A stretch of 64,000 nucleotides of DNA, taken from the NCBI GenBank assembly GCA_024742705.1, contig JANSXZ010000006.1:1-64000 (forward strand), read 5' to 3'. Below, one piece after another: positions 4,858 through 35,472 of the stretch. The notes beneath the pieces were generated by a model, which saw nothing but the letters and a program-made list of their open reading frames with translations, did not search any database and was not told where the DNA came from. Origin of the DNA: Paracoccaceae bacterium. GTDB taxonomy: Bacteria > Pseudomonadota > Alphaproteobacteria > Rhodobacterales > Rhodobacteraceae. The position numbers and the translations under genes were made by a program. Every line of letters begins with the position of its first letter. Within the stretch, counting starts at the first letter, position 1.

Positions 4858-4896
4858 CTTCATCTTGCAGGATAAACTCCCGCCGGAGGCATCCGC
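4858..4896 (-). repeat. Intergenic repeat, copy 1 (39 nt)
   Basis: Read on the minus strand, this matches 21685-21723 at 38 of 39 bases and contains the core CTCCGGCGGGAG followed by TTTATCC and AAGATGAAG. It lies in the gap between the convergent cyclase and HlyD-like genes. CTCC/GGAG can form a short hairpin with a GGCG loop. It is probably a dispersed repeat tied to gene ends, perhaps a weak bidirectional terminator. Confidence 0.8.
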
Positions 4897-4937
4897 ACCG
4901 CCCAGCCCATACCGCCACGCGAAATTCCACGCAGCCC

Positions 4938-20231: not shown

Positions 20232-21680
20232 ATGAGCGACGACCTGATTTACATGACCGCCACCGAAACCCTGGCGCGATATGCCGACAAGAGCCTGTCG
20301 CCGGTTGAGATGATGTCGGCGCAGATCGCCCGTGCCGAGGCCATCGCGCAGCCGGTCAACCCCTTCGCCGCCACGTTCTTCGACGCGGCGATGGATGCGG
20401 CCCGCGCGTCCGAGGCGCGGTGGGCCAGCGGCGCGCAGGCCGGTTGCCTGGACGGCATCGCCGTGGCGATCAAGGACGAAAGCTATATCGAGGGTCAGCC
20501 GACGACCTTCGGCTCGCTGGTCAACAAGGACGACATCGCCGATTTCACGTCGCCGAACAACGAACGCATTCTGGGTGAAGGGGGGATCGTGCATGTGCGC
20601 ACGACCACGCCCGAATACTCGAGCGCCGGCTACTGCTGGTCGCGGTTGCACGGTGTTACGCGCAACCCGTGGAACACCGATTACACGCCGGGCGGATCGT
20701 CGGGCGGCGCTGGCGCGGCGCTTGCGGCGGGAGCCACGCAACTGGCCACGGGATCGGACATCGGTGGATCGATCAGGATTCCCGCGTCATGCAGCGGTGT
20801 CGTCGGCTACAAGCCGCCCTATGGGCGCAACCCCGACGACATCCCCTTCAACCTGGATTTCTACTGCCACACCGGCCCGATGGCGCGCAGCGTCGCCGAC
20901 ACGATCCTGTTGCAGAACGTGATGTGCGGCCCGCATCCGCACGATATCGCATCGCTCTATCCCAAGCTGGTGCTGCCGACACGGTATCCCGACCTGAAGG
21001 GGTGGAAGATCGCGCTGTCGATGGATCTGGGCAGCTTTCCTCTGGACCCGGACGTGCGCGCGAACACCCATGCGGCGGCCGAGACGTTCCGAGCGCTGGG
21101 GGCCACGGTCGAGGAGGTGGATATCGGATGGGGCCCCGAGGTTCTGGAGGCGGCGCTGGGATATCTCACGCATCTGTTCGGCGGGTCGCTGTCGATGCTT
21201 CTGGACGATCACGCCGAATCGCTGACACCCTATGTGCGCGAAATGGCGGAACGCGCGCGCGCATCGAGCGCACAGGATTTCGTGCGCACGCTTCAGGTGG
21301 CCGGGGAAAGCTATATGAAGCTGGGCCCGCTGCTGGAGCGCCACGACGTTCTGATCTGCCCCACCAACGCGCTGCCCGCGGTGCCCGCCGCCTTCGATCA
21401 CAGCCGCGACACCGTGGAAATCGACGGGACCGCCGTGGACCCGACGCTGGGCTGGGTAATGACGACACCCTTCAACATGATGAGCCGGTGCCCGGTCTTG
21501 TCGGTGCCTTCGGGATTTGCCGCGAACGGTGTGCCGACCGGACTGCAGATCGTCGGGCCGACCTATCGCGACGCGAAAGTGTTCCAGGCGGCCATGGCCT
21601 TCGAGGCAGCGACGGGCGGATGGTATGGGCCGGGCCGGCCGCAACCGGCGATCGCCATGGCGAAAGCCGGCGCGGGCTGA
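20232..21680 (+). CDS. Amidase signature family hydrolase
   Basis: An amidase of 482 residues with the full Ser-cisSer-Lys triad: Lys81 in VAIKDESY, the Ser pair 156-157 in GGSSGGAGA, and nucleophile Ser180 in GSDIGGSIR. It is similar in layout to GatA, but no gatB or gatC lies nearby, so a catabolic amidase is more likely than tRNA amidation. It starts 14 bases after the serine hydrolase gene, behind GCAGATCCGAG. The pairing with the polyamine-type importer suggests hydrolysis of an imported amide; the substrate is not determined. Its end is followed within five bases by a dispersed intergenic repeat. Confidence 0.87.
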   Translation: MSDDLIYMTATETLARYADKSLSPVEMMSAQIARAEAIAQPVNPFAATFFDAAMDAARASEARWASGAQAGCLDGIAVAIKDESYIEGQPTTFGSLVNKDDIADFTSPNNERILGEGGIVHVRTTTPEYSSAGYCWSRLHGVTRNPWNTDYTPGGSSGGAGAALAAGATQLATGSDIGGSIRIPASCSGVVGYKPPYGRNPDDIPFNLDFYCHTGPMARSVADTILLQNVMCGPHPHDIASLYPKLVLPTRYPDLKGWKIALSMDLGSFPLDPDVRANTHAAAETFRALGATVEEVDIGWGPEVLEAALGYLTHLFGGSLSMLLDDHAESLTPYVREMAERARASSAQDFVRTLQVAGESYMKLGPLLERHDVLICPTNALPAVPAAFDHSRDTVEIDGTAVDPTLGWVMTTPFNMMSRCPVLSVPSGFAANGVPTGLQIVGPTYRDAKVFQAAMAFEAATGGWYGPGRPQPAIAMAKAGAG

Positions 21681-21684
21681 AGCC

Positions 21685-21723
21685 GCGGATGCCTCCGGCG
21701 GGAGTTTATCCGGCAAGATGAAG
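21685..21723 (+). repeat. Intergenic repeat, copy 2 (39 nt)
   Basis: Plus-orientation copy of the dispersed element, 38/39 identical to the complement of 4858-4896 and identical over 33 bases to 28575-28607. It fills most of the 50-base gap between the convergent amidase and lyase genes. The core CTCCGGCGGGAG can fold into a short hairpin. Confidence 0.85.
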
Positions 21724-21730
21724 GGCGCTG

Positions 21731-22630
21731 TCAGCCTGCGAGGATCGGGCTCTGGTCGATTTCGCCGAGCAGGAAGCGCATCTGCTGCTGTTCGATCTCG
21801 TCGAATCCGATGAAGGTCTTGAAATCGGCCATGCTCATTTGCGGATGCGGCAACGCGGCGGTGCCTTCATCGGCCACGAGACGGGAAAAGTTGTCCTGAA
21901 GGGCCTGGGCGGCGGTCATCAAGGCCACCAGCGGATAGCAGGCCAGGCCGGCGACCTCGCGGATTTCGGGGCGTGTCAGATCCTTTTCGAGCCAGCCGAA
22001 GACCTGGAGCGAAAGCGGTTTGTCCACCGCCTTGCGGAACCTCTGAAGGCCGGCGAAATCGTTGAAGGTGCGGCTGATAGGCTGAACCAGATCGGCGCCG
22101 GCGGCGGCATAGGCGCGGGCGCGGGCGATGGCGGCGTCTTCCGTCATGGCATCGGTGCGCGCGATGATCAGTGTGTCGGGGTCGCGGCGGGCCTCGACGG
22201 CGGCGCGAATCTTGGCGACGTTTTCCTCCATCGGCAGGATCTCGAGCCGGTTGGCGGCGGCGGGGCAGCGTTTCGGGGCCACCTGATCTTCCAGGATCAG
22301 CGCCGCGACGCCGGCCTGTTCGAATTCGCGGACCGTGCGCATCACGTTGATGGCGTTGCCGTAGCCGGTGTCGGCGTCGGCGATGACCGGGATATCGACC
22401 GCGTTCACGGTGTTGCGGATGACGCCGAGGTTTTCGGTCATTGTATAGAGTTCGACATCGGGGAACCCGAGTTGCGTGGCGGAAACCGCGAAGCCGGATG
22501 TCATGACGGCGGTGAACCCGGCCTTCCGGGCCATCATCGCCGACATCGCATCGTAGCATCCCGCCGCGATCCGGGTGTCGCCGGCGCGCAGGGCCTTTGC
22601 GAAGGCGCGTTTGGTTTCGGGGGTCATCAT
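21731..22630 (-). CDS. Isocitrate lyase/PEP mutase-family lyase
   Basis: A TIM-barrel enzyme of 299 residues from the isocitrate lyase/PEP mutase superfamily. Metal-binding motif: IADADTGYG; late barrel motif: LIIARTDAM; and ILEDQVAPKRC on the gating loop. The loop reads KRCPAAANR: the catalytic-type Cys of true lyases is kept, but the usual Gly-His after it is replaced. The N-terminus has tandem ATGs at 22630 and 22627 behind AGGAGA. Its start overlaps the stop of the small aconitase-type subunit (ATGA), so it is the third gene of the hydratase operon. Family reactions that fit this pairing are cleavage of 2-methylisocitrate or of 2,3-dimethylmalate to pyruvate plus propionate; oxaloacetate decarboxylase is an alternative. 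Confidence 0.82.
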   Translation of the reverse strand: MMTPETKRAFAKALRAGDTRIAAGCYDAMSAMMARKAGFTAVMTSGFAVSATQLGFPDVELYTMTENLGVIRNTVNAVDIPVIADADTGYGNAINVMRTVREFEQAGVAALILEDQVAPKRCPAAANRLEILPMEENVAKIRAAVEARRDPDTLIIARTDAMTEDAAIARARAYAAAGADLVQPISRTFNDFAGLQRFRKAVDKPLSLQVFGWLEKDLTRPEIREVAGLACYPLVALMTAAQALQDNFSRLVADEGTAALPHPQMSMADFKTFIGFDEIEQQQMRFLLGEIDQSPILAG

Positions 22631-23148
22631 GATGTGCTCTCCTGTCGGTCGCGGGCGTGCAGATAGCCCACCAGCCCCCCCGCCTCGAGCATCTGTCGGT
22701 CGGATTCGGATAGGGGTTCGATGGGCAGTTGCGTGGATCTGGTGTGGTTGTGCAGCACGCCGGCGGACCAGTCGACTTCGATCTCGTCCCAGCGGCCGAC
22801 GGCCGTCAGGATGCCCGGACAGGCGACCTGGGGAAAACCCATGGCGATTTCGCCGCGCCAGTATCCGGGGGAGAAGCTTTCGGCGACGACGCCGGCGACG
22901 CCGAGGTGCCGCATCGCGATCATCGGCGGATAGTGCGGATGGCCGTAGCCGAAGTTGAGATTGCCGACCAGCAGATCGCCGGGGCGCACCTGGCCCGCGA
23001 AATCCGGATCGTATTCCGACATCGCGACGCGGGCCAGTTCATCGACATCCTTGATCTTGATGTTCTTTACGCCGACGATCTGATCAACGTCGAAATCGGG
23101 CTCGTCGAAGACCCATGCAACGCGGCCGCGCAAGTTCGCCAGCGCCAT
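22627..23148 (-). CDS. Aconitase-family hydratase, small (swivel) subunit
   Basis: A 173-residue LeuD-like swivel domain. Features: VGNLNFGYGHPHYPPM, equivalent to the GxNFGCGSSREHA loop of LeuD but altered (no Cys-Ser-Ser-Arg), then VVAESFSPGYWRGEI and GFPQVACPGI. The start ATG 23148 (MALANLRGRV) lies two bases after the large-subunit stop. It should complete the active site of the adjacent [4Fe-4S] large subunit. The altered loop argues against a biosynthetic isopropylmalate isomerase and for a specialised hydratase, for example of the dimethylmaleate hydratase (DmdB) type. Confidence 0.8.
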   Translation of the reverse strand: MALANLRGRVAWVFDEPDFDVDQIVGVKNIKIKDVDELARVAMSEYDPDFAGQVRPGDLLVGNLNFGYGHPHYPPMIAMRHLGVAGVVAESFSPGYWRGEIAMGFPQVACPGILTAVGRWDEIEVDWSAGVLHNHTRSTQLPIEPLSESDRQMLEAGGLVGYLHARDRQESTS

Positions 23149-23150
23149 CC

Positions 23151-24413
23151 TCAACCCTCCAGATAGGGGCGCGGATCGGCGATCCTGCCTTCGATGGCCG
23201 AAGCGGCCACCGCCGCGGCGTTGACGATGAAGATTTCGCTGTCGGGCGATCCCATCCGGCCCCGCACGTTCAGCGTTCCGGTCGACACGGCGCGCTGACC
23301 GGCTGTCATCACGCCCATGCGCCCGAAGCAGTAGTCGCAGGACGAGGAGGTGACGAACGCGCCGGCGTCGATCAGCCGCGAGAGGGTGCCTTCGCTGGCG
23401 GCCTGACTCATGATTTCCTTGCTGGTGGGCACGACATAGAGCTTGAACCCAGGTTTGACCCGGTGCCCTTCCAGAACATCGGCGGCCAGCCGCAGATCTT
23501 CGACGCGGCCCGAGGCGCATGAGCCCAGATAACCGACATGCACTTCGGTGCCGGTGACGGTGCTGAGATCGCGGGTGTTGGCGGGGCTGGGCGGGATGAC
23601 AACCACGGGTTCGAGATCGGAAATGTCGATCCTGTGGCGCGCGGCATATTGCGCATCGGGGTCCGAGAACACCGGTTCCAGATCCTTGCGCTGGCGCGCG
23701 CGGGCGTAGGCCAGCGCCTTGTCGTCGGGATTCATGATTGCGGTCACCGCGCCGGTGAACATCGCAAGGCAGTTTATCGTCTGGCGCGCTTCCAGCGACA
23801 TGTCGGCCACCGCGTCGCCGCCCAGTTCCAGCACATGGAACCGGCAGGCAGATGGCCCCAGCGTGCGCACGATGTGATGGAACACGTCACGCGAGGTCAC
23901 GCCGGGCGACAGACGACCTGTCAGGTCGATCCGCGTGGTCTGCGGCACCTTCAGCTTGATGTATTCCTTGACGAACGCCTCGAGCAGGTGACGCCGGACG
24001 CCGATCGCCAGCGTGCCGAAGGTGCCCAGTTGCGAGATGTGGCCATCGAAGTGCACCACGAAGGCGCCGGGTGTGGCATAGCCCAGTTCGGCGGCGACCT
24101 GGTGGCCGATGCCGACGTTCTCATAGACCGGCACGTCGTTGCGGGCGCCCCATTCGCGGGTGATCTTGTGCAGATCCTCTTCGGCGGGCGTGGTTGCGGG
24201 CACCATGTGATCGATGAACAGCGCGAAACGATCGGGTTCGGCAACGCGGTCGATCCCGAACTCCTCTTTCATCTGGCGAAAGATCACGTCGGTGTAGCCG
24301 GGAAAATCATAGGCGATCACATAGTCGGGCTTGACGCGAATGTCCTCGCCGGCGCTGACTCGGTCACGCCCGGCGGCACGGGCCAGGATCTTTTCGGCGA
24401 TGGTCTGCCCCAT
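23151..24413 (-). CDS. Aconitase-family hydratase, large iron-sulfur subunit
   Basis: A 420-residue LeuC-like protein. Cluster ligands are seen as Cys in YLGSCASGR and the pair in SSSCDYCFGRMGV. DHMVPATTPAEED, HFDGHISQLGTFGT and LNVRGRMG are conserved aconitase-fold segments. It catalyses a dehydration/hydration step on a hydroxy-dicarboxylate together with the small subunit two bases downstream. Start ATG 24413 has GGAGA seven bases upstream. It follows the IclR gene by 54 bases, and a candidate operator lies at 24465-24489. With the lyase downstream and the TRAP transporter divergent, it looks catabolic and not part of leucine synthesis. Confidence 0.85.
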   Translation of the reverse strand: MGQTIAEKILARAAGRDRVSAGEDIRVKPDYVIAYDFPGYTDVIFRQMKEEFGIDRVAEPDRFALFIDHMVPATTPAEEDLHKITREWGARNDVPVYENVGIGHQVAAELGYATPGAFVVHFDGHISQLGTFGTLAIGVRRHLLEAFVKEYIKLKVPQTTRIDLTGRLSPGVTSRDVFHHIVRTLGPSACRFHVLELGGDAVADMSLEARQTINCLAMFTGAVTAIMNPDDKALAYARARQRKDLEPVFSDPDAQYAARHRIDISDLEPVVVIPPSPANTRDLSTVTGTEVHVGYLGSCASGRVEDLRLAADVLEGHRVKPGFKLYVVPTSKEIMSQAASEGTLSRLIDAGAFVTSSSCDYCFGRMGVMTAGQRAVSTGTLNVRGRMGSPDSEIFIVNAAAVAASAIEGRIADPRPYLEG

Positions 24414-24464
24414 GGCGATGTCTCCGGTTGGTATCGCGTCACAGGCTTTGCCAGAAGTGTGTGC

Positions 24465-24489
24465 ATGTCAACTGACAACTTTTATTTCA
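24465..24489 (+). promoter_or_regulatory. Candidate IclR operator B, upstream of hydratase operon
   Basis: ATGTCAAC, nine bases, TTATTTCA, then CCTG. This is the same bipartite sequence with the same spacing as at 25333-25357, and it lies 51 bases upstream of the large-subunit start, across the iclR stop codon. Its orientation relative to the gene it precedes is the same as that of copy A relative to dctP. A second shared block, GCAA(A)GCCT-N5-GCGATAC, lies downstream of both (minus strand 24451-24431 here; plus strand 25361-25380 at the other site). Confidence 0.6.
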
Positions 24490-25304
24490 CCTGATGATTT
24501 ATGCCCGTCAACTGTCCGGACCAACCGCGCCATGTCGTGCACGGCCGCATCCAGTTGGCCCAGCAGGCCGTTCTGATTCCGCCCGACGATTTGCGGTGTC
24601 AGGCCGCCGATCGACACCGCCGCCACGGTTTCCCCGCGGTCGTTTTTCAACGGCATCGCCATCGCCGAAAGGCCGGCGGCCACGTCATCCTGAGTGATCA
24701 CCCAACCCTGCGCGACGATCCGGTCCAGGTCACGGCGCAGGTGGGCGGGATCGGTTTCGCTGAAATCGGTCAGGCGCGCCAGCGGCCGGGCCAGAACCGC
24801 CTTCTGATCCTCGGGCGGCAGATGCGCCAGCAAGACGCGCGGCCCGGCACCACAGTTCAGCGGCATGGTTTCGCCCACCGACCACCACCGCACCTCGACG
24901 GCCGATTCGCCGTGGTACCGGGCCAGACACAGCGCCTCGGCGCCCTTGGCCACGGAAAGATAGGCGGTCGTGCCGGTTTCGGTGGCCAGTTGGCGCAATC
25001 GCGAATCGACCAGATCTTTCAGCGCTACGCCCTCCGGCACCGCGCTGGCCAGTTCAAGTACGCTGAGCGTCAGCGAATACTGCCCGGTTCCGGGGTTTTG
25101 CTGCACCAGCCCTTCGTCGCGCAGCGTGACCAACAACCGGCGGGTGGTGCCCGCATCCAGCTTTGTGGCCTGCGCAATCTCGCTGAGCGACAGGTACGGG
25201 CGGTCGACGCTGAAGCTGCGCAGGATCGAAACCGCGCGGCTGACGGCGCGCACTCGCGACAAGGTGCGTCCGTCGCGCGGCTGCTTGGGGGTAGGAGGAT
25301 TCAA
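24468..25304 (-). CDS. IclR-family transcriptional regulator
   Basis: A regulator of 278 residues from the chosen TTG start. The winged helix-turn-helix is near the N-terminus (RAVSRAVSILRSF, then LSEIAQATKLDAGTTRRLL). The IclR effector domain follows (about 95-270), with YLSVAKGAEALCLARY, LNCGAGPRVLLAHL and GLSAMAMPLKN. The start is uncertain. TTG 25304 has AGGG six bases upstream; GTG 25328 and ATG 25349 are in frame but have no ribosome site and would place candidate operator A inside the gene. It sits between the hydratase-lyase operon and the divergent dctPQM operon and probably controls both in response to their carboxylate substrate. Confidence 0.85.
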   Translation of the reverse strand: MNPPTPKQPRDGRTLSRVRAVSRAVSILRSFSVDRPYLSLSEIAQATKLDAGTTRRLLVTLRDEGLVQQNPGTGQYSLTLSVLELASAVPEGVALKDLVDSRLRQLATETGTTAYLSVAKGAEALCLARYHGESAVEVRWWSVGETMPLNCGAGPRVLLAHLPPEDQKAVLARPLARLTDFSETDPAHLRRDLDRIVAQGWVITQDDVAAGLSAMAMPLKNDRGETVAAVSIGGLTPQIVGRNQNGLLGQLDAAVHDMARLVRTVDGHKSSGEIKVVS

Positions 25305-25332
25305 CGGTTTCCCTAAAGTAATTTTCACAGGA

Positions 25333-25357
25333 TGAAATAATAATTGCATGTTGACAT
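25333..25357 (-). promoter_or_regulatory. Candidate IclR operator A, in the iclR-dctP divergent region
   Basis: On the minus strand: ATGTCAAC, nine bases, TTATTTCA, then TCCTG. Both eight-base halves and the spacing equal those of copy B. The plus-strand complement of one half is GTTGACAT, which contains a consensus-like -35 hexamer for dctP. The overlapping TTTCACAGGATGAAA at 25324-25338 is itself an inverted repeat (TTTCA-N5-TGAAA). Confidence 0.6.
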
Positions 25358-25381
25358 TTTGCAAGCCTCTCGTGCGATACT
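25351..25381 (+). promoter_or_regulatory. Possible dctP promoter
   Basis: TTGACA at 25351-25356 and TG-C-GATACT at 25373-25381 could be a -35 and an extended -10. The 19-base spacer is longer than the optimum. It overlaps candidate operator A. The dctP start is 41 bases downstream. Confidence 0.35.
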
Positions 25382-25422
25382 GTCTCCGATCCGGTGCGTG
25401 ATGCCGGTGTAGGGAGGACATC

Positions 25423-26502
25423 ATGAAACACTTTGTCGCCGGGCTGACCGGCCCCGCCGTACTGGCCGCTGGCCTGTTCACATTTTCATTTGCCGATACG
25501 GCCGATGCGCAGATGCGCGAGCTGCGATTTGCCGAATTCGGCCCCAACCGGGGCACTCGGGCAGCCGCACTCGAGTGGCTCGACACCGAAATGCGCGAGA
25601 GATCCGGCGGCACGCTGGGGCTGGACATTTCGTGGGGCGGCGCTCTGCTGGGCGCCAAGACCGCGGCGCAGGGCCTTGCCGATGGCGTCGCCGACATGGC
25701 ATCCATCGTGCCGGTCTACGCGCCGGGCCAGCTGGTCGCCTATGAGGTGGTCGACACCGTGCAATACGGCGACGAATGGGTTGGCATGATGGCGACCTAC
25801 GAGTTCATGAACACCAACGAGGCGGCACTGGCCGAGCAGAAATCGTCGGGTATCAAGTACTTCGGCAACTACACCACCGGGCCGACGCAATTGCTGACCA
25901 AGGACGCGCCGGTCACCACCGCCGAAGATCTGGCGGGCCTGACGATCCGCGCCACCGGCGCCTTTGTGCCGGCAGTCGAAAGCAAGGGCGCATCGACCGT
26001 TTCGGTTTCGCAGCCGCAGGTCTATGAGGCGCTTTCCAACGGATCGGTCGACGGATCGACGACCTACTACTATGTGGTCAAGGCCTACAAGCAGTACGAA
26101 GTGGCCAAGTACATCACCGATCTGAACATGGGGCAGGTTCTGGCCTTCGGCGTGGGCATGAACATGAACACCTACATGAGCCTGTCGGACGAGGAACAGC
26201 AGCTTGTCGATCAGCTGGGCCGCGAGTTCACCGATTACATGGCTGAAAAAATGTACGAATCCCGCACCAGCGTGCGCGCCGAACTGGAGGCCGGCATCGA
26301 CGGGCACAAGATCACCGTGGTCGAACCGACAGCGGAATTGCGCGCCTCGATGGTGGCGATCGCCGATGCGGATGTGAGCAGCTGGATGGAAAAGGCCGAG
26401 AAGAAGGGCCTGGACGCGGCGGCGGTTCTGGACAGCTACAAGGCGCTGCTGGCCAAGTACGAGGCCGAACGCGACGCCAACGGCTACCCCTGGGCGCGCT
26501 GA
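25423..26502 (+). CDS. dctP: TRAP transporter substrate-binding protein
   Basis: A periplasmic DctP-type solute receptor of 359 residues. The signal peptide ends near ADTADAQ before MRELRFAEFGPN. The conserved carboxylate-binding Arg lies in LAGLTIRATGAF, followed by SQPQVYEALSNGSVDG, the usual DctP lobe motif. A strong AGGGAGGA ribosome site precedes the ATG. It starts the dctPQM operon, divergent from iclR. TRAP transporters take up carboxylates with a sodium gradient, so the ligand is probably the acid degraded by the hydratase-lyase operon at 21731-24413. Confidence 0.9.
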   Translation: MKHFVAGLTGPAVLAAGLFTFSFADTADAQMRELRFAEFGPNRGTRAAALEWLDTEMRERSGGTLGLDISWGGALLGAKTAAQGLADGVADMASIVPVYAPGQLVAYEVVDTVQYGDEWVGMMATYEFMNTNEAALAEQKSSGIKYFGNYTTGPTQLLTKDAPVTTAEDLAGLTIRATGAFVPAVESKGASTVSVSQPQVYEALSNGSVDGSTTYYYVVKAYKQYEVAKYITDLNMGQVLAFGVGMNMNTYMSLSDEEQQLVDQLGREFTDYMAEKMYESRTSVRAELEAGIDGHKITVVEPTAELRASMVAIADADVSSWMEKAEKKGLDAAAVLDSYKALLAKYEAERDANGYPWAR

Positions 26503-26527
26503 GCCGCCACAACAGGACCCGCGCGGC

Positions 26528-27094
26528 ATGGCTGCGCGGGCCCGTCCCCCGATCCCGCATTCCGGAACCCTGCCCTTGGACCGCCTGCTCAGTCTGATTG
26601 AAAACCTTGCCTTGTGGCTGGCATGTGCCGCGCTGCTGGCGATGGGCGCCATCGTGACCGGTTCGGCGCTGGGGCGCACGATGTTCAACGCGCCGATACC
26701 CGACGATCTGCTGATGGTGGGCCTGTTGATGGTCTGCGTGATCATCCTGCCGCTGGCCTATGTGGAACGGGGCGATGGCCATATCGCGGTGACAGTCGTC
26801 ACCGACCGCCTGCCCGCGCGCGTCCGTCACGCGCTGAGCGCGCTGGGACGGTGCCTGTTCGGTGCCTTCATCGGCACGATGGGCTGGATGCTGGCGCTGA
26901 AAGTTCCGAAGGAAATGGCCGGCGGATTGTACTATGACGGGCGGCTGGAGATTCCCACATGGCCGATGAAGGCGATCTTCGCATTCGGCGCCGCGGTGTT
27001 CCTGATCCGGCTGGCGGTGAACGTGGTGCGCGACCTGCGGGTGGCGGCGGGCCATGTCCCACCGCCCGATGCCGGCGGGACCGCGCCGCATTGA
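26528..27094 (+). CDS. dctQ: TRAP transporter small membrane subunit
   Basis: A DctQ subunit of 188 residues with four membrane helices (about 24-45, 58-78, 100-125 and 142-165). The start ATG 26528 gives a short basic N-terminus (MAARARPP) before the first helix; it lies 25 bases after the dctP stop. It partners DctM and DctP. It has no enzymatic motifs, as expected. Confidence 0.85.
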   Translation: MAARARPPIPHSGTLPLDRLLSLIENLALWLACAALLAMGAIVTGSALGRTMFNAPIPDDLLMVGLLMVCVIILPLAYVERGDGHIAVTVVTDRLPARVRHALSALGRCLFGAFIGTMGWMLALKVPKEMAGGLYYDGRLEIPTWPMKAIFAFGAAVFLIRLAVNVVRDLRVAAGHVPPPDAGGTAPH

Positions 27095-27182
27095 CCGGCG
27101 CCGCACCCGGCCCGGCCGCATCGCCCGCACCCTGCTTTCTGGCTGTAAACCGGCCTGATCGCGCGATGGAAAGGCATCTGCA

Positions 27183-28523
27183 ATGGATCCACTGAGTGTC
27201 GGACTGATCGCGCTGGCCGCCACGCTGGTGCTGCTGGCGCTGCGGGTGCCGATCGCCGCGGCGCTGGGCATCGTGGCCAGCGTGGGGATCTTCGTGATCT
27301 TCGCCTGGCGACCGGGCCGCGACTTCCTGCCCGAATACGCATGGCAGCCCACGCTTTCGCTGATTTCCAACAATCCCTATGCCTTCATCACCGGCTATAC
27401 CCTGTCGACGGTGCCTCTGTTCATCCTGATGGGACACCTGGCGTTCGAGGCCGGCTTCACCACCGATATCTACCGCGCTGCAAGGCTGTGGCTGTCGCGG
27501 CTGCCCGGCGGCGTGGCGATGGCATCCGTTGTGGGCTGTGGCGGGTTTTCGGCGATCACCGGATCGTCGGTGGCCTGCGCCGCCGCCATGGGCCGGATCG
27601 CGATTCCGGAGATGCTGCGGTTCGGCTATTCGCGCGCGCTGGCCGCCGGATCGGTGGCGATCGGTGGCACGCTGGGATCGCTGATCCCGCCTTCGGTGCT
27701 GTTCATCCTCTATGGCATCTTCGCCGAACAGAGCATTGCCAAGCTTTTTGTTGCGGCAATCGTTCCGGGGCTTCTGTCGCTGCTGGCCTATCTTCTGGTG
27801 ATCTACGTCTGGGTGCGCCTGCGGCCCGACGCGGCGCCGGTGCCGCAGGAAACCATCAGCCGAAGCGACAGGATGCGCGCGCTGCGCGACTGCTGGGCCA
27901 TCGTGACGCTGTTCATCGTGGTGATCGGCGGCATCTACATCGGGCTGTTCACGCCGACCGAAGCCGCCGGCGTGGGCGCGGCGGCCTGTCTGGCGCTGGG
28001 GGTGGTTCTGGGGCGCCTGAACCTGCGCCGCATCGGCGCGGCCCTGAAGGAAACCGTGTTCCAGAGCGCGATGATCTTCGTCATCGCCATCGGCGGGAAG
28101 CTGTTCGTGAGCTTCATCGCCCTGACCGGCCTGCCAACGCAGATCACGGAATGGATTCAGGCGGCGGATGTATCGGTGTTCCTGGTCATGGGCCTGATCG
28201 TGGTGATGTATCTTTTCCTGGGGATGTTTCTGGATCCGATCGGCATCATCCTGCTGACGCTGCCGCTGACCATACCGATCGTCGAGACCTTCGGGTTTTC
28301 GCTGATCTGGTTCGGCGTCGTGGTGATCAAGCTGCTGGAGATCGGCCTGGTGACGCCGCCCATCGGACTGAATGTCTTTGTCATCAAGTCGATCGTCGGC
28401 GACCGCATCCCGCTGGAATCGATCTTTGGCGGGGTGGCGTGGTTCCTGATCATCGAGATCTTCGTGCTGGCGGCCATTCTGGGCATACCGGCGCTGTCGC
28501 TGTTTCTGCCCGGTTTCGTCTGA
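27183..28523 (+). CDS. dctM: TRAP transporter large permease
   Basis: A DctM subunit of 446 residues with about twelve hydrophobic segments, belonging to the ion transporter superfamily. Characteristic segments: VGCGGFSAITGSSVACAAAMG, GTLGSLIPPSVLFILYG, and late ITPIGLNV-type sequence seen here as VTPPIGLNVFVIKSIV. It lies 88 bases after dctQ, behind GAAAGG. It completes the dctPQM set and is followed by copy 3 of the dispersed intergenic repeat. Confidence 0.92.
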   Translation: MDPLSVGLIALAATLVLLALRVPIAAALGIVASVGIFVIFAWRPGRDFLPEYAWQPTLSLISNNPYAFITGYTLSTVPLFILMGHLAFEAGFTTDIYRAARLWLSRLPGGVAMASVVGCGGFSAITGSSVACAAAMGRIAIPEMLRFGYSRALAAGSVAIGGTLGSLIPPSVLFILYGIFAEQSIAKLFVAAIVPGLLSLLAYLLVIYVWVRLRPDAAPVPQETISRSDRMRALRDCWAIVTLFIVVIGGIYIGLFTPTEAAGVGAAACLALGVVLGRLNLRRIGAALKETVFQSAMIFVIAIGGKLFVSFIALTGLPTQITEWIQAADVSVFLVMGLIVVMYLFLGMFLDPIGIILLTLPLTIPIVETFGFSLIWFGVVVIKLLEIGLVTPPIGLNVFVIKSIVGDRIPLESIFGGVAWFLIIEIFVLAAILGIPALSLFLPGFV

Positions 28524-28574
28524 CGGCTACGGCTGCCCGGCACCCCGAGCCGTGCGCCGGTGGCACGTTCGGGA

Positions 28575-28607
28575 GCCTCCGGCGGGAGTTTATCCGGCAA
28601 GATGAAG
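28575..28607 (+). repeat. Intergenic repeat, copy 3 (33 nt)
   Basis: Identical over 33 bases to the end of 21685-21723. It lies in the 118-base gap between the convergent dctM and gmaS genes, as copies 1 and 2 lie in other convergent gaps. Confidence 0.85.
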
Positions 28608-28641
28608 CGGCGACCCGCACGCCGGGGCGGTTTTGCCGGCG

Positions 28642-29973
28642 TCAGATGTCAATGGCGTTGTCGCGTTCCCAGCGGGTGAAATGGGCGGTGTAATCGAGCC
28701 ATTCGTTCTGCTTGAGCTTCAGGAAAGCTTCGGAAAACTCGGTGCCCAGCATGGCCTGAAGCGGTTTGTCCTTGGCAAAGGCGCGCAGGGCGTCGAGCAG
28801 GTTGAGCGGCAGGCGCACGGCGCCGCGCAGTTTGTGACCGTCGGCGTACATGTCGATATCGCTGCGTTTGCCCGGATCGGCATCGGTGGCGAGGCCCGAA
28901 AGCCCGGCGGCGATGATAGCGGCCTGGAGCAGGTAGGGATTGGCGGCGCCGTCGGCGAGGCGCAGTTCGAACCGCCCCGGGCCCGGAACGCGCACCATGT
29001 GGGTGCGGTTGTTACCAGTCCAGGTGACGGTGTTGGGCGCCCAGGTGGCGCCGGAGGCCGTGCGCGGGGCGTTGATGCGTTTGTAGCTGTTGACGGTGGG
29101 GTTGGTGATGGCCGTCATCGCCCGCGCGTGCCGCATGATTCCGCCCAGAAACGCGCGGCCCTGATCCGACAGGCCCAGTTCGGCGGTGTCGCCGGTACCG
29201 GCCGGCGCTGCGAAGACGTTGTTCGCGGCGGCGGCCCCCGGCGCGTCCCAGACGGACACATGCGCGTGGCAGCCGTTGCCGGTGAGGCCGGGTATCGGTT
29301 TGGGCATGAAGGTGGCGCGCAGACCGTGTTTTTCGGCGACGGATTTGACCATGAACTTGAAGAACGAGTGCTTGTCGGCGGTGGCCAGGGCATCGTCGAA
29401 TTCCCAGTTCATCTCGAACTGGCCGTTGGCGTCTTCGTGATCGTTCTGGTAAGGGCCCCAGCCGAGGCCCAGCATGTGGTCGCAGATCTCGGCGATCACG
29501 TCATAGCGGCGCATTACTGCCTGCTGATCATAGCAGGGTTTGGCAGCGGTGTCGGCCGGATCGCTGATGCTGTCGCCATCGGCGGTGAGCAGGAAGAACT
29601 CGGCTTCGACGCCGGTCTTGACGTGCAGCCCCTGCGCGCCGGCCTCGGCGATCAGCCGGCGCAGCACGTTGCGCGGCGCCTGCGCGACCTCGGCGCCGTC
29701 CATCACGGGGTTGGCCGCGACCCAGGCGACATCGGGTTTCCAGGGCAGCTGGATGACCGACGCCGGATCGGGCACCGCGAGCATGTCGGGATCGGCGGGC
29801 GACATGTCGAGATAGGTGGCGAAACCGGCAAAGCCGGCGCCTTCGCTCTGCATGTCGGCGATGGCGGCGGCGGGAACCAGTTTGGCGCGCTGACCACCGA
29901 ACAGATCGGTGAAGGAGATCATGAAGTATCTGACGCCATTGTCGGCGGCGAACTGGCTGAGGTCGGTGGTCAT
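28642..29973 (-). CDS. gmaS: Gamma-glutamylmethylamide synthetase / type III glutamine synthetase
   Basis: A glutamine-synthetase-fold ligase of 443 residues. The N-terminal beta-grasp (FMISFTDLFGGQRAKLVP) is followed by metal-site motifs GVEAEFFL, NDHEDANGQFEMNWEFDD and GNGCHAHVSVWD, ATP and substrate residues in TWTGNNRTHMVRVPGPGR, and FELRLADGAANPYL. It is shorter than GSI (about 470) and matches GlnT/GmaS. Its position after mgsABC and an XRE-cupin regulator supports gamma-glutamylmethylamide synthetase: glutamate plus methylamine plus ATP. A GGGGAAA ribosome site precedes ATG 29973. It is separated from mgsC by 167 bases with no feature I can name. Ordinary glutamine synthesis remains an alternative. 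Confidence 0.82.
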   Translation of the reverse strand: MTTDLSQFAADNGVRYFMISFTDLFGGQRAKLVPAAAIADMQSEGAGFAGFATYLDMSPADPDMLAVPDPASVIQLPWKPDVAWVAANPVMDGAEVAQAPRNVLRRLIAEAGAQGLHVKTGVEAEFFLLTADGDSISDPADTAAKPCYDQQAVMRRYDVIAEICDHMLGLGWGPYQNDHEDANGQFEMNWEFDDALATADKHSFFKFMVKSVAEKHGLRATFMPKPIPGLTGNGCHAHVSVWDAPGAAAANNVFAAPAGTGDTAELGLSDQGRAFLGGIMRHARAMTAITNPTVNSYKRINAPRTASGATWAPNTVTWTGNNRTHMVRVPGPGRFELRLADGAANPYLLQAAIIAAGLSGLATDADPGKRSDIDMYADGHKLRGAVRLPLNLLDALRAFAKDKPLQAMLGTEFSEAFLKLKQNEWLDYTAHFTRWERDNAIDI

Positions 29974-30140
29974 TTTCGGTTTCCCCTTTTTGCTCGTATC
30001 AGGCCGTGGGCGATGCCGGGCGCTCTGGCCGGACCCTTGTCACACATGCCGGCCCGTCTTGTCGCGCGGCAAGCGGCGACCGGCGGTGATTTCCGGGCAC
30101 CGGCGCGCCCGGGCGCGGCAAGTTTGGGCGCCGCGGGCCA

Positions 30141-31463
30141 TCATGACGGTTTGCCGGGGTACCAGTCGGTGCCCGCCAGCGGCACCTTTGCCATCGCCGC
30201 CGCCTCCATCGTTATCGCGCAAAGGTCTTCCGGTTCGAGGTTGAGCACATGGTTCTTGCCGCAGGCGCGGGCGATGGTCTGGGCCTCGAGTGTCATGACC
30301 TTGAGATAGTTGTTCAGCCGGCGCCCGCCTTCGACCGGATCAAGCCGCGCAGCCAGTTCGGGATCCTGGGTGGTGATGCCGGCGGGATCGCGCCCTTCGT
30401 GCCAGTCGTCATAGGCGCCGGCGGTGGTGCCGAGGGCTTTGTACTCGGCTTCATGGCGCGGATCGTTGTCGCCCAGCGCGATCAGGGCGGCGGTGCCGAT
30501 CGAAGCGCAATCGGCGCCCAGCGCGAGCGCCTTGGCCACGTCCGCGCCATTGCGGATGCCGCCCGAAACGATCAGCTGCACGCTGCGGTGCATCCCCAGA
30601 TCCTGAAGCGCGCGGACCGCTTCGGGGATGCAGGCCAGCGTCGGCATCCCGACGTGTTCGATGAACACGTCCTGGGTGGCCGCCGTGCCGCCCTGCATAC
30701 CGTCCAGAACCACCACATCTGCGCCTGCCTTGACCGCGAGCGTCGTATCGAAATAAGGCCGCGCGCCGCCGATCTTGACGTAGATCGGCACCTGCCACCC
30801 GGTGATTTCGCGCAGTTCGAGTATCTTGATCTCGAGATCGTCGGGCCCGGTCCAATCGGGATGGCGGCAGGCGCTGCGCTGGTCGATGCCGGCGGGCAGG
30901 TCGCGCATCGCGGCCACGCGGTCGCTGATCTTCTGGCCCAGAAGCATGCCGCCACCGCCGGGTTTCGCGCCCTGTCCAACGACGATTTCGATGGCATCGG
31001 CACGGCGCAGATCGGCCGGGTTCATGCCGTAGCGCGACGGCAGGTATTGATAGACCAGCAGTCGCGAATGGCCGCGCTCTTCAGGTGTCATGCCGCCGTC
31101 GCCCGTGGTTGTCGATGTCCCGGCAAGCGTCGCGCCGCGGCCCAGCGCCTCCTTGGCCTGGCCCGACAGCGCCCCGAAGGACATGCCGGCGATGGTGATC
31201 GGAATGTCCAGACGCACCGGCGATTTCGCGTACCGCGTGCCCAGTGTCACATCGGTGCCGCAACGCTCGCGGTAGCCTTCCAGCGGGTAGCGCGACATCG
31301 ACGCGCCCAGAAACAGCAGATCGTCGAAATGCGGCAGGCGCCGTTTCGCCCCGCCACCGCGGATGTCGTAGATGCCTGTGGCGGCGGCGCGGCGGATTTC
31401 GGCATTCACCGCCGGGGTGAACGTCGCCGACTGAACCGGAACAGTGCGGGGTTTGTCGGTCAT
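30141..31463 (-). CDS. mgsC: N-methylglutamate synthase, FMN-binding subunit
   Basis: A 440-residue FMN-dependent glutamate-synthase-domain protein. Barrel motifs: GMSFGALSGQAKEALGRGA, GQGAKPGGGGMLLGQKIS, SGGIRNGADVAKAL and ALGADCASIGTAAL. The three-cysteine iron-sulfur site expected near the C-terminus of full glutamate synthases is not obvious, as in the MgsC/GlxD subgroup. It starts at 31463 (MTDKPRTVPVQ), seven bases after the mgsB stop. With MgsA and MgsB it should transfer methylamine nitrogen onto glutamate to give N-methylglutamate. In other bacteria, methylotrophs included, these three genes lie next to gmaS, as here. Confidence 0.83.
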   Translation of the reverse strand: MTDKPRTVPVQSATFTPAVNAEIRRAAATGIYDIRGGGAKRRLPHFDDLLFLGASMSRYPLEGYRERCGTDVTLGTRYAKSPVRLDIPITIAGMSFGALSGQAKEALGRGATLAGTSTTTGDGGMTPEERGHSRLLVYQYLPSRYGMNPADLRRADAIEIVVGQGAKPGGGGMLLGQKISDRVAAMRDLPAGIDQRSACRHPDWTGPDDLEIKILELREITGWQVPIYVKIGGARPYFDTTLAVKAGADVVVLDGMQGGTAATQDVFIEHVGMPTLACIPEAVRALQDLGMHRSVQLIVSGGIRNGADVAKALALGADCASIGTAALIALGDNDPRHEAEYKALGTTAGAYDDWHEGRDPAGITTQDPELAARLDPVEGGRRLNNYLKVMTLEAQTIARACGKNHVLNLEPEDLCAITMEAAAMAKVPLAGTDWYPGKPS

Positions 31464-31470
31464 CTGAGCC

Positions 31471-32148
31471 TCAGTACGCGTTGTCGATGTCGAAATGATA
31501 CAGACGGCGGGCCGACCCGTAGCGCCGGAACCCGGCGGGATCGGCATCGCTGCCGGCGCTTTCCAGCAGCTTGGCGAGGGCGGTCAGGTGTTCGGGCCGC
31601 ATCTCTTTCTCGATGCAGTCCGCGCCCAGCGATTTGACCGATCCGCGCACGAAAAGCTGCGCCTCGTAGATGCTGTCGCCCAGCGCCTCGCCGGCATCGC
31701 CACAGACCACCAGGTGGCCCTTTTGCGCCATGAAGGCCGACATGTGCCCGATGTTCCCGTGCACCACGATGTCAATTCCCTTCATCGAGATCCCGCAGCG
31801 CGACGCGGCATTGCCGTGGATCACCAGAAGGCCGCCATGACCGGTGGCGCCGGCATACTGGCTGGCGTCACCTTCCACGATCACGGTGCCCGACATCATG
31901 TTTTCCGCAACTCCCGGCCCGACCGATCCGGCCACGCGCACGGTTGCGCGGGCGTTCATCCCGGCGCAGTAATACCCCGTGGGCCCGGCCACCGTGACAT
32001 CCAGCGGCGCGTCAAGCCCGACGGCCAGCGCATGGGCGCCGCGCGGGTTCAGGATTTGCCAGGCGGTCTGGTTGGTGCTGCCGTTCTGCGCCTGCAAGGC
32101 GGCGTTCATGTCGCGCAGCGTGGTTTCGGCGAGGTCGATCACCTGCAT
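31471..32148 (-). CDS. mgsB: N-methylglutamate synthase, GXGXG-domain subunit
   Basis: A 225-residue protein made almost entirely of a right-handed beta-helix, the C-terminal alpha-subunit domain of glutamate synthase. Repeated glycine turns are seen in GPTGYYCAGMN, GDASQYAGATGHGG, GNIGHMSAFM and GDAGEALGDSIYEA. The start ATG 32148 (MQVIDLAETTL) comes one base after the mgsA stop region, so translation is coupled. Its role is structural, assembling the amidotransferase and FMN subunits. Confidence 0.83.
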   Translation of the reverse strand: MQVIDLAETTLRDMNAALQAQNGSTNQTAWQILNPRGAHALAVGLDAPLDVTVAGPTGYYCAGMNARATVRVAGSVGPGVAENMMSGTVIVEGDASQYAGATGHGGLLVIHGNAASRCGISMKGIDIVVHGNIGHMSAFMAQKGHLVVCGDAGEALGDSIYEAQLFVRGSVKSLGADCIEKEMRPEHLTALAKLLESAGSDADPAGFRRYGSARRLYHFDIDNAY

Positions 32149-32149
32149 G

Positions 32150-33034
32150 TCAGTGGCTCCAGAAGTAAACGGTTGCCGGCTCTGGTTCCCAGATGCGGGC
32201 ACGCGCGATGTCAGGCAGGTTGACCAGCGCACGGTATTCCGAACCAAAGGCGACATATCGTTCGGTTTCGGCCATCACCGCCGGTTTGCAGGCGATCGGA
32301 TCGCGCAGCACACCGAAGCCGTCGGCGGTGCCCACCACGAAGGTGTAGAACCCGTCGAGATCGCGCAGGCCCTGTTCCAGCGCGCCGCCCAGCGTGGCCC
32401 CCTGCCCCATCCGCCAGGTCAGATAGGCAGCGCCGACTTCGGTGTCGTTCTCGGTTTCGATATGCACGCCATCGCGGCGCAGACGGCGGCGCAGCGCGTT
32501 GTGGTTCGACAGCGATCCGTTGTGCACCAGGCACTGGTCGGGCCCGGTTGAAAACGGATGCGCGCCCATGGTGGTGACAGCCGATTCGGTGGCCATCCGC
32601 GTATGGCCGATGCCGTGGGTGCCGGACATTTCAGGCACCGCAAAGCGGCGCGCGACGTCGCGCGGCAGCCCGACCTCCTTGTAGATTTCGATCCTTTCGC
32701 CCGCGCTCATCACGCGCAGCCCCGCGGGCAGCGCCGCGCGCAGGTCCGGCGCCGCGTCGCGCGGCGCTTCGATCACGGCGTGCGTGTCCTTGCGGGTGAT
32801 CGACACATCGGTGCCCGTGGCCGCGGCAAGCCGCGCCTGCAACCCGTCGAAGGCGGCCATGTCATCGCTCTGCACCGTCAACTTGGCCCGGCCGGGACGG
32901 CCCGGACCGTAGATCGCGATGCCGGCGCTGTCGGGGCCGCGATCTGTCATCGTGACCAGCATATCCGTCAGCAGGCCGCCCAGTTCGGGCTGCAACCGCG
33001 CATCCTTCAGAAACAATCCGACGATTCCACACAT
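32150..33034 (-). CDS. mgsA: N-methylglutamate synthase, class II amidotransferase subunit
   Basis: A class II glutamine amidotransferase of 294 residues. The N-terminal nucleophile is Cys2 (MCGIVGLF), with RGPDSAGIAIYG, GIGHTRMATES and LVHNGSLSNHNALRR as the other conserved loops. In glutamate synthase this domain releases ammonia from glutamine; in the N-methylglutamate synthase complex it would act on gamma-glutamylmethylamide and free methylamine. First gene of mgsABC, 110 bases downstream of the XRE-cupin regulator on the same strand. Confidence 0.85.
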   Translation of the reverse strand: MCGIVGLFLKDARLQPELGGLLTDMLVTMTDRGPDSAGIAIYGPGRPGRAKLTVQSDDMAAFDGLQARLAAATGTDVSITRKDTHAVIEAPRDAAPDLRAALPAGLRVMSAGERIEIYKEVGLPRDVARRFAVPEMSGTHGIGHTRMATESAVTTMGAHPFSTGPDQCLVHNGSLSNHNALRRRLRRDGVHIETENDTEVGAAYLTWRMGQGATLGGALEQGLRDLDGFYTFVVGTADGFGVLRDPIACKPAVMAETERYVAFGSEYRALVNLPDIARARIWEPEPATVYFWSH

Positions 33035-33144
33035 GGCCCGGCCCCGTTTATCCCTGCGTCAGGGTTAGCACCGGGCCACAGGAATTTCAACTGTCAAGAA
33101 ACAAATTTTCCCCGTAAGGCGCACAACGGCCGGTTTGGGCCGAA

Positions 33145-33771
33145 TCAGGCGCTGCGGTACGAGATCACCGACAGATAGCGCGCCGGCAGGCGGACCAGCA
33201 CCTCGGGGCCGTGCGGCGCATCGGCGTCGAAGAACAGCGTATCGCCCGGTCGCAACGGATAGACCGCCGTGCCATGCCGGTAGTCCACCGCACCTTGGAG
33301 CATGTAGATCATTTCGACGCCGTCATGCTGAAACGCCGGGAACACATCCGAAGCCTCGGTGAGGGTGATCAGGTAGGGTTCGACCATGACGCCGCTGGCG
33401 TTGCCGCCGATATGGCCCAGCAACCGGTACTGATGGCCCGCGCGGGTGCCGGCGCGGTCTGTCTCGACGCCCGCGCCGGCGCGTGTGTGCACCGCGTTGC
33501 GCCGCGTTTCGAAGCGGCGAAAGAACGCCGTGACGGGCACGCCGAGCGATTCCGACAGGCTTTGCAGCGTTGTCAGCGATGGCGAGGTGTTGCCGTTCTC
33601 GATCTTGGAAAGCATGCCGATCGACAGGCCGGTGCGCTGTGCGAGGTCGGCCACCGTCAGGCCGTGCTGGTGCCGGATGGCGCGCAGTTCGCGCCCGATC
33701 GCCTCTTCCAGCACGGTCGAGCGATCCTCGCGCAGCCGGTGCGGATCCTGGGAAAGCGGGGGTTTCGGCAT
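33145..33771 (-). CDS. XRE-family regulator with C-terminal cupin domain
   Basis: A 208-residue regulator. The helix-turn-helix (about 30-85) reads LTVADLAQRTGLSIGMLSKI then ENGNTSPSLTTLQSLSESLGV. The C-terminal cupin (about 125-205) has FPAFQHDGVEMIYMLQG and YPLRPGDTLFFDADAPHGP and probably binds a small effector. The start ATG 33771 (MPKPPLSQDPH) is chosen because the upstream frame extension is of low-complexity composition. Proteins of this type precede glnT/gmaS-glx/mgs clusters in other alphaproteobacteria; here it lies directly upstream of mgsABC on the same strand and is the likely local regulator. Confidence 0.85.
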   Translation of the reverse strand: MPKPPLSQDPHRLREDRSTVLEEAIGRELRAIRHQHGLTVADLAQRTGLSIGMLSKIENGNTSPSLTTLQSLSESLGVPVTAFFRRFETRRNAVHTRAGAGVETDRAGTRAGHQYRLLGHIGGNASGVMVEPYLITLTEASDVFPAFQHDGVEMIYMLQGAVDYRHGTAVYPLRPGDTLFFDADAPHGPEVLVRLPARYLSVISYRSA

Positions 33772-33909
33772 GGTTCGGGTTCCGGGGTTCTGTCGGGCGG
33801 AACCTAGCCTGCGCCGCCAGCCAAGGCCAGTGGCCGTGCCAGAGGCGGCGGCACGCAGAGACCACCGGGTGGCGCGGGAGGTGAGCGCGAGGGGGGCTTT
33901 CTGCCCCCC

Positions 33910-33958
33910 GCCTGGGCAAGCCCAGGCCCCCCCGAGGATATTTTTGGCAAAAGGAAAG
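33910..33958. repeat. Hairpin plus AT-rich Roseobacter-type intergenic element
   Basis: GCCTGGGC-AA-GCCCAGGC (33910-33927) is a perfect eight-pair hairpin. After a C-run it is followed by GAGGATATTTTTGGCAAAAGG, in which TTTTG-G-CAAAA is a second small inverted repeat. It lies in the 232-base gap between the divergent XRE-cupin and M20 genes. It recalls the GC hairpin plus ATATTTTTGGC elements common between Rhodobacteraceae genes, and it differs from the three-copy repeat. Confidence 0.6.
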
Positions 33959-34003
33959 CGAATTCGGCTGGCCCCGCGCCCGCCGAAGCGCCACGATGCG
34001 GGG

Positions 34004-35413
34004 ATGGATACAAGCGACACCAGAGCGGGGGCCATCGACCGGGCCGAACGGTATTTCGACAGCGGCGGTTTTGCCGCCGACCTGGCGCGGCTGGTGGCCT
34101 ATCCCACCGAGAGCCAGGTGCCCGCGCGGGCGCCCGAACTGATGCGGTACCTGCGCGAGGCGTTGCAGCCGCGCCTTGCGGCGGCCGGTTTTGCCTGTGA
34201 GATCTTCGCCAATCCCGAGCCGAAGGGCGGGCCGCTGTTGCTGGCCGAGCGGATCGAGCCACAGGGGCCGCGGGTTCTGAGCTATGGGCATGGCGATGTG
34301 ATCCGCGCGCAGGAAACGCAATGGCGCGCGGGGTTGCGGCCCTTCGACCTGACCGATGCGGAGGGGCGGCTTTATGGCCGGGGCAGCGCCGACAACAAGG
34401 CACAGCACCTGATCAACATCGCCGCGCTGGAGGCGGTTCTGGCGGAGCGCGGCGCGCTGGGGTTTTCCATGCGCTTCGTGATCGAGATGTCCGAGGAGAC
34501 CGGTTCGCCGGGGCTGGACGCGTTTTGCGCGGCACGGGCCGGGCGGCTGGCTTCGGATGTTCTGATCGCGTCGGACGGGCCGCGGTTGCAGCCCGACACG
34601 CCGACAGTGTTCACAGGCGCGCGCGGGGCGATGAATTTCGACATGACCGTGCAATTGCGCGACGGGGCGCATCATTCGGGCAACTGGGGCGGGGTTCTGG
34701 CCGATCCGGCGATGATACTGGCGCAGGCATTGTCGACGATCACCGACGCGCGCGGCTGCATCCTGATCCCCGAATGGCGCCCCGACAGCCTGACGCCCGC
34801 GATCAGCGCGGCGCTGCGCGACCTGCCGGTCGTGGGCGATGCGGGCCCCGAGATCGATCCCGAATGGGGCGAAACCGGGCTGAGCCCGGCAGAGCGTCTG
34901 TATGGCTGGAACGCCTTTGCGGTGCTGGCGATGCAAAGCGGCGTGCCCGATGCGCCGGTGAACGCGATCGCGGGCGAGGCCCGTGCGACCTGCCAGTTGC
35001 GGTTCGTGGTGGGCACCGACATGAAACAGATCCTGCCAGCCCTGCGGCGCCACCTGGCGCGGGCGGGTTTTGGCGACACGGTGCGGGTGACGCCGCATGA
35101 AGAGAAGCCTTTCTGCGCCACCCGGCTGGACCCGCGCCACCCCTGGGTGCGATTCACCGCCGGATCGCTGGAGCGCACCAGCGGCCGGACACCGCATGTT
35201 CTGCCCAATCTCGCCGGTTCCCTGCCCAACGAGGTTTTCAGCGATATACTAGGGTTGCCGACGGTTTGGATTCCACATTCCTATCGCGGCTGTTCACAAC
35301 ACGCCCCGAACGAACATGTCCTCAAACCGGTTTGCCGCGATGCGCTGCGGTGCATGGTCGGGTTGTTCGCGGATATCGCCGATACCGGCGGGCCCGCCCC
35401 CGCTGCGCCATAG
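34004..35413 (+). CDS. M20-family zinc peptidase/deacylase
   Basis: A 469-residue M20 metallopeptidase. Metal-binding motifs: SYGHGDVI (His and Asp), YGRGSADNKAQH (bridging Asp), and the catalytic Glu pair in EMSEETGSPGLD. A dimerisation lid domain (about 210-330) follows, with GARGAMNFDMTVQLRDGAHHSG. The C-terminal SYRGCSQHAPNEH supplies the last His. M20 enzymes split dipeptides, N-acyl or N-carbamoyl amino acids; this one resembles the ArgE/DapE-like branch often called M20 deacylase. The start is MDTSDTRAG at 34004, behind GCGGGG. It sits next to a cupin gene and a methylated-amine gene cluster; the substrate is unknown. Confidence 0.8.
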   Translation: MDTSDTRAGAIDRAERYFDSGGFAADLARLVAYPTESQVPARAPELMRYLREALQPRLAAAGFACEIFANPEPKGGPLLLAERIEPQGPRVLSYGHGDVIRAQETQWRAGLRPFDLTDAEGRLYGRGSADNKAQHLINIAALEAVLAERGALGFSMRFVIEMSEETGSPGLDAFCAARAGRLASDVLIASDGPRLQPDTPTVFTGARGAMNFDMTVQLRDGAHHSGNWGGVLADPAMILAQALSTITDARGCILIPEWRPDSLTPAISAALRDLPVVGDAGPEIDPEWGETGLSPAERLYGWNAFAVLAMQSGVPDAPVNAIAGEARATCQLRFVVGTDMKQILPALRRHLARAGFGDTVRVTPHEEKPFCATRLDPRHPWVRFTAGSLERTSGRTPHVLPNLAGSLPNEVFSDILGLPTVWIPHSYRGCSQHAPNEHVLKPVCRDALRCMVGLFADIADTGGPAPAAP

Positions 35414-35472
35414 GCCCTGAGCCGCGCCGCCCATCCGCTTCAACGACCACCCCAAAAACAGGATACACCGAC

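Follow-up and report, generated by a model that had tools for sequence, protein, structure and literature searches.

The window analysed here, a stretch of 64,000 nucleotides, carries the gene for an IclR-family regulator of 278 amino acids (iclR, 24468..25304, minus strand) between a set of hydratase and lyase genes on the same strand and a set of TRAP transporter genes on the plus strand. For iclR we infer a TTG start at 25304, after AGGG, as the most likely one. The encoded protein has both the IclR helix-turn-helix domain (PF09339, 49.6 bits against a cut-off of 22) and the C-terminal effector domain (PF01614, 90.4 bits against a cut-off of 24), and so belongs to the IclR family. Its nearest curated model is TIGR02431 (PcaR/PcaU/PobR), where its 143.9 bits fall below the cut-off of 284.75; it also scored below the cut-offs of the BhcR equivalog NF045644 (112.6 bits, cut-off 350) and of the equivalog model for E. 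coli IclR (74.9 bits, cut-off 380).

On the minus strand, profile searches identify hydL (23151..24413) as a large subunit of the aconitase/3-isopropylmalate-dehydratase type (LeuC-type). It is accompanied by hydS (22627..23157, with a predicted start codon), a small subunit of the LeuD/DmdB type whose TIGR02087 score of 105.5 bits (query region 22627-23199) is just below the cut-off of 108.95 and which had no Pfam match in the profile search. The third gene of this unit (21731..22630, minus strand) encodes a lyase of the isocitrate-lyase/PEP-mutase superfamily; its nearest curated model is PrpB, below the cut-off of that model, and among solved structures it is closest to a PEP phosphomutase and to methylisocitrate lyases. 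On the plus strand are dctP (25423..26502), a TRAP solute-binding protein gene recognized by profile searches, and the genes for the small and large TRAP membrane subunits, dctQ (26528..27094) and dctM (27183..28523), both assigned by Pfam. A single di- or tricarboxylic acid may be what these two units handle, the TRAP transporter taking it up and the hydratase and then the C-C lyase breaking it down. Adjoining the TRAP genes, at 28642-38288, are minus-strand glutamine-synthetase-like, glutamate-synthase-like, GXGXG-motif (just below cut-off), glutamine-amidotransferase-like and FAD/aminomethyltransferase genes, accompanied by a cupin-HTH regulator.

A preliminary description of this DNA had proposed a duplicated two-block operator, ATGTCAAC-N9-TTATTTCA, through which the IclR protein encoded between the copies would control both units. 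Both copies are present without mismatch, at 24465-24489 (plus strand) and 25333-25357 (minus strand). They have the same orientation relative to the gene that follows and end 51 (hydL) and 65 (dctP) bases ahead of the start codons; read toward each gene, the repeat is TGAAATAA-N9-GTTGACAT. The window holds no third match at up to 3 mismatches, and in 100 dinucleotide shuffles matches averaged 0.08, no shuffle yielding two. Across the whole assembly (3.7 Mb, 90% complete), nothing but the two copies matches with fewer than 3 mismatches, and seven further sites have exactly 3.

As an operator, this first pair of blocks is conserved in orthologous loci (see below), but it had been drawn too far downstream. 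The block TTATTTCA is one half of a palindrome, ATTTCA-N5-TGAAAT, whose other half lies further upstream (the whole spanning 25322-25338 and 24484-24500), while GTTGACAT, of which ATGTCAAC is the reverse complement, holds the -35 hexamer TTGACA. Each copy of the repeat comprises the right half of the palindrome and the -35 box of an outward promoter. On the dctP side (plus strand), the palindrome TTTTCA-CAGGA-TGAAAT (25322..25338) has 1 mismatch to ATTTCA-N5-TGAAAT. It is followed by a third box, ATTGCA (25343..25348), recognized by column conservation between the palindrome and the -35 box, by the -35 box TTGACA itself (25351..25356), 12 bp after the palindrome, and by a -10 predicted by promoter scoring, GATACT after TGC (25376..25381), at a 19-bp spacer. 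On the hydL side (minus strand), the operator AAATCA-TCAGG-TGAAAT (24484..24500) has a decayed left half, where both of its 2 mismatches fall. The third box there, also from column conservation, is GTTGTC (24474..24479), and the -35 box is TTGACA (24466..24471). A consensus promoter scan of 21500-28700, which allowed spacers of 16-18 only and required set -10 letters, listed neither outward promoter.

The hydL operator lies inside the 3' end of the iclR coding sequence. In the window, the iclR frame reads across all of this operator and has its stop codon (24468-24470) within the -35 box. Measured from the first base of the hydL palindrome, the iclR stop in the 20 named loci with the same gene order (described below) begins anywhere from 6 bases before to 11 bases after; it falls within the palindrome in 6 of the 20 and shares its last base with the palindrome in 7.

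A homolog search with the IclR protein returned 275 proteins, of which the best 120 were listed; 36 were aligned with the window protein and 26 named loci were fetched. The recognition segment LDxGTxRR is found in 26 of 28 IclR proteins, the exceptions being L017 and L030. By tblastn, 20 of the 26 named loci have the order dctM-dctQ-dctP, iclR, hydL-hydS-lyase as far as their contigs reach (those of L014 and L021 end after the start of hydL, inside the gene, and that of L029 before the lyase). This set of 20 excludes L030-L032 and L034-L036, which have an IclR of 41-46% identity and another gene order, and counts only once the assemblies shared by L010-L012 with L019, L024 and L026.

In all 20 same-order loci, the composite TTTCA-N5-TGAAA-N7-T-N5-TTGAC occurs exactly once before dctP and once before hydL, with no other copy within these loci, and the palindrome core TTTCA-N5-TGAAA is intact at 40 of 40 sites. 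Over 330 kb (27 loci scanned) we found 44 composites, against 1.8e-5 expected under independent bases. We tabulated 41 sites (21 dctP and 20 hydL, window included); L014, which is part of the 20/20 composite count, was omitted from the hydL rows because only 28 hydL residues precede its contig end. In this table the TTTCA and TGAAA columns hardly vary, if at all, unlike the columns that flank them. TTGAC starts exactly 12 bp after the palindrome in every row, L038 having an additional, earlier TTGAC on its dctP side, and the -35 box reads TTGACA or TTGACT at all 41 sites, as expected of a sigma-70-type promoter. The third box keeps its TT in 40 and 41 of 41 rows (two columns), followed by a purine in all. 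The -10 regions score weakly, the best spacer being 19 bp in 12 of 21 dctP promoters and 17-18 bp in 17 of 20 hydL promoters. The window itself deviates from this pattern, since its hydL site has lost two left-half letters; its dctP site is intact but for the single mismatch. Taken together, the orthologous loci strongly support the predicted coordinated control of both units by the IclR protein encoded between the copies.

As half of the repeat originally described is a -35 box, one could suppose that the copies are merely two strong sigma-70 promoters sharing a -35 consensus, the rest of the likeness being chance. We consider this very improbable: it is contradicted by upstream TTTCA and TGAAA columns that hardly vary while their flanks do, by the excess of composites over expectation in the 27 loci, and by the restriction of the composite to IclR carriers in the family sample described below. 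It is also extremely improbable that the two copies stem from a recent local duplication of one promoter. At variable columns, the dctP and hydL sites of one locus resemble each other slightly more than sites of different loci do (0.413 vs 0.364, permutation p 0.03), but the likeness is weak, and since all 20 same-order loci have both copies, any duplication would have to be old. On so weak a signal, we do not claim duplication or gene conversion between the two sites.

A second pair of blocks, GCAA(A)GCCT-N5-GCGATAC, had been described as following each copy toward the gene. It is indeed seen at both places in the window, but its start is 3 bases past the repeat at dctP and 13 bases past it at hydL, which puts it 10 bp further from the -35 box before hydL than at dctP. 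Before hydL, however, neither half appears in any of the 19 tabulated orthologs within 60 bases after the palindrome, leaving the window as the only one of 20 rows to have it. In the corresponding 60 bases at dctP, 11 of the 21 rows contain G[CT]GATA, and GCAA(A)GCCT is confined to 2, those of the window and L013. We therefore reject the second pair as an operator; at dctP it is the spacer and -10 region, outside the conserved switch, and before hydL it is a chance or private likeness. Conservation of the blocks in orthologous loci, on which the original proposal had been staked, thus holds for the first pair but not for the second.

At up to 2 mismatches, the composite occurs exactly twice per genome in the genome of the window and in three relatives, always at this locus. 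In a family sample of 295 genomes, a search for the IclR protein (E <=1e-30, at most 8 candidates scored per genome) was positive in 4; those 4 genomes carry the exact composite, and the 291 others all lack it. The four comprise the genome of the window and three that also contribute to the 20 named loci. With one mismatch allowed, 21 further genomes of the family sample have a single scattered match, compared with 12 for a reversed control pattern. The HydL protein (E <=1e-100) is found in 5 of the 295 genomes, namely the four IclR carriers and G232, whose contig ends inside hydL. A hydL fragment with one internal TGA was seen in L064, at the end of a 3,168-base contig, followed by hydS and lyase; the iclR side is not assembled there.

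In a class sample, an exact scan of 385 genomes by DNA alone found five with the composite, and reading IclR and neighbour genes at these five showed hydL, hydS, lyase and iclR at the site in every case. The five are the genome of the window, G578 and three genomes of one genus (L056-L058). G578 (L059, L090) has the full order dctMQP, iclR (55%), hydL, hydS, lyase; its hydL-side site is decayed, with the spacing kept. For L056-L058 we considered the site as a MarR operator, since a MarR gene is just upstream in L056, and dropped the idea because hydL-hydS-lyase-iclR lies downstream in all three.

Alternatively, a different, global regulator might bind the palindrome, with IclR acting elsewhere. 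In favour of this, palindromes with TGAAA/TTTCA halves are simple, and the binding of IclR to them is itself a prediction. A global regulator would be expected to have many sites per genome, though, and each of the four genomes has exactly two; moreover, the exact composite follows IclR in the family sample, as described above. We regard this explanation as remote.

Each of the three same-genus genomes of the class sample has two IclR genes at 44-45% identity, plus two of 31-33%, and two clusters, each with a single composite at up to 2 mismatches. In all three, the first cluster has the composite at its head and ends in hydL, hydS, lyase and iclR, while the second has the composite directly before hydL, with lyase and iclR at the cluster end. 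A Pfam scan of G551 placed a peptide-type binding protein and a permease in the first cluster, and a branched-chain-type binding protein and an ABC ATPase in the second. Both half-sites of the second cluster are altered together, to GTTCA/TGAAC, as expected of a protein reading both halves alike; the change is likely a single event common to the genus. Counting against IclR as the reader of these sites, the IclR paralogs of the peptide-type clusters have the recognition segment VDKATARR, yet their clusters keep the TTTCA site. These paralogous pairs of hydL-hydS-lyase-iclR clusters (L065, L085-L089), with different ABC importers, have TTTCA operator halves in one cluster and GTTCA in the other.

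The six distant named loci (IclR 41-46%) all keep the spacing of the site. The composite is exact in three of them (L031, L034 and L035), L032 and L036 have a one-sided variant, and L030 has the GTTCA form. Five of the six have hydL; in L036, where the site variant is present, none was seen in the 14.7 kb examined. L034 and L031 (about 320-6770) encode a FAD-type/FAD-linked oxidase and a branched-chain-type binding protein, L034 also a metallo-beta-lactamase-fold protein, and neither has a dctP, dctQ or dctM match in the stretch examined. A plasmid search gave 4 records with a distant IclR, below 47% identity.

Among known regulators of the family, MhpR of E. coli is an activator with a 17-bp palindrome centred near -58, the same position as we estimate for the palindromes here; we know of no third box at the MhpR site. 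E. coli IclR, of the same protein family, is the repressor of aceBAK, a unit that, like the one here, contains a lyase. The sites given for these proteins in the main text of Suvorova and Gelfand (2021, PMC8222616) are not those found here: the MhpR operator, GGTGCACCTGGTGCACA, differs from ours, and the halves of the E. coli IclR site, TGGAAATNATTTCCA, stand in the opposite order. PcaU, PobR and PcaR, the beta-ketoadipate regulators, are the nearest curated protein model but with a score below the family cut-off; the same main text gives their operators as TCGAT/ATCG in type, in contrast to TTTCA/TGAAA here, and states that PcaU needs a palindrome plus an external repeat. Unlike their setting, there is no aromatic-pathway gene among the genes scanned here.

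The closest likeness is to the three-box IclR operators in the main text of PMC8222616. One described form is the WTT-11-AAW (group 1) motif, a 17-bp inverted repeat WTTYCRY-W3-RYGRAAW, and the third box is of alternating direction, making a TGRAACA-N1-2-TGTTYCA-like pair with box 2. As in those operators, we find a 17-bp inverted repeat with an extra box, whose distance, on our reading, may make boxes 2 and 3 a group-2-like pair, and, as in systems treated there, a neighbouring IclR protein is here predicted to control adjacent operons locally. Judged by eye, the dctP site of the window fits all 14 outer letters of the group 1 motif, its centre being AGG rather than WWW, and the hydL site misses 2 of 14. 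The third box fits the published consensus in position and partly in its letters, without a full GTTYC. Compared with the operators of that main text, the third box here is reduced (TT plus a purine) and stands at a fixed distance from the -35 box, and the palindrome centre is often not W3.

From the centre of the palindrome to the first T of the -35 box is a distance of 21 bp, so that spacers of 17 to 19 bp would place the centre at about -56 to -58; the start sites are uncertain, because the -10 boxes are weak and the spacing differs between the dctP promoters (mostly 19 bp) and the hydL promoters (17-18). On our reading of the sequences, the IclR protein probably binds both palindromes and switches on both units when an inducer is present. 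A dimer would sit on the palindrome, with a further subunit touching the third box, and the complex, its centre near -57 and its end next to the -35 box, would contact RNA polymerase. The inducer may well be the imported acid or a product of it. IclR would then activate both the dctP and the hydL unit, and uptake and breakdown of what is probably a single organic acid would be switched together.

We favour activation on account of the position near -57, like that of MhpR, the fixed spacing and the weak -10 boxes. With the same operator and the same protein, IclR could instead be a repressor, bound beside the -35 box and blocking RNA polymerase at both promoters until the acid or its product releases it. 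IclR proteins include repressors, and a near-consensus -35 box, such as is found at every tabulated site, is also expected of a repressed promoter; a tetramer could, moreover, cover the -35 box, since the third box reaches that region. On the other hand, the palindrome is upstream of the core promoter and not over it, at a 12-bp distance that is the same in 41 of 41 sites, and weak -10 boxes would be more usual at an activated promoter. It is the strong -35 box that leads us to keep repression as a possibility, albeit a rather unlikely one.

Alongside activation of both units, IclR may repress its own gene, as the dctP-side site would cover the likely iclR transcription start. A consensus match to an iclR promoter, TTGCAA-16-TATTAT (25337..25364, minus strand), has its -10 (25337-25342) at the edge of the dctP-side palindrome, which would mean self-repression, although such matches are no commoner than chance (1 found, shuffle mean 1.2).

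More tentatively, the IclR palindrome and a third box at a fixed distance from the -35 box might form an old module that spread through the Alphaproteobacteria with the hydratase-lyase core. The neighbouring importer would have been replaced on the way, giving TRAP, branched-chain-type ABC and peptide-type ABC versions, and the third box would serve to hold a regulator tetramer directly against sigma. No activation of that kind is described for the IclR family in the literature examined.

No paper on this regulon or cluster is among the matches listed in our literature searches (the best 15 of 1,095 and the best 5 of 122). In the main text of PMC8222616, the terms COG0065, COG2513, isopropylmalate, aconitase and PrpB are absent, and the sole occurrence of LeuC is as part of "leucine" in the title of a reference. 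The type of control is already known, and as far as sequence comparison goes this locus is a new, well supported and clear example of it. What had been a two-copy repeat becomes a testable regulon of one regulator, two sites and two units, for which about 40 natural variants define the letters and spacing of the operator and the geometry of the promoters. An uncharacterised hydratase-lyase pathway is linked in this way to its importers, so that knowing the inducer would give a pointer to the substrate, and the sites offer a natural series for asking what the third box of IclR operators does.
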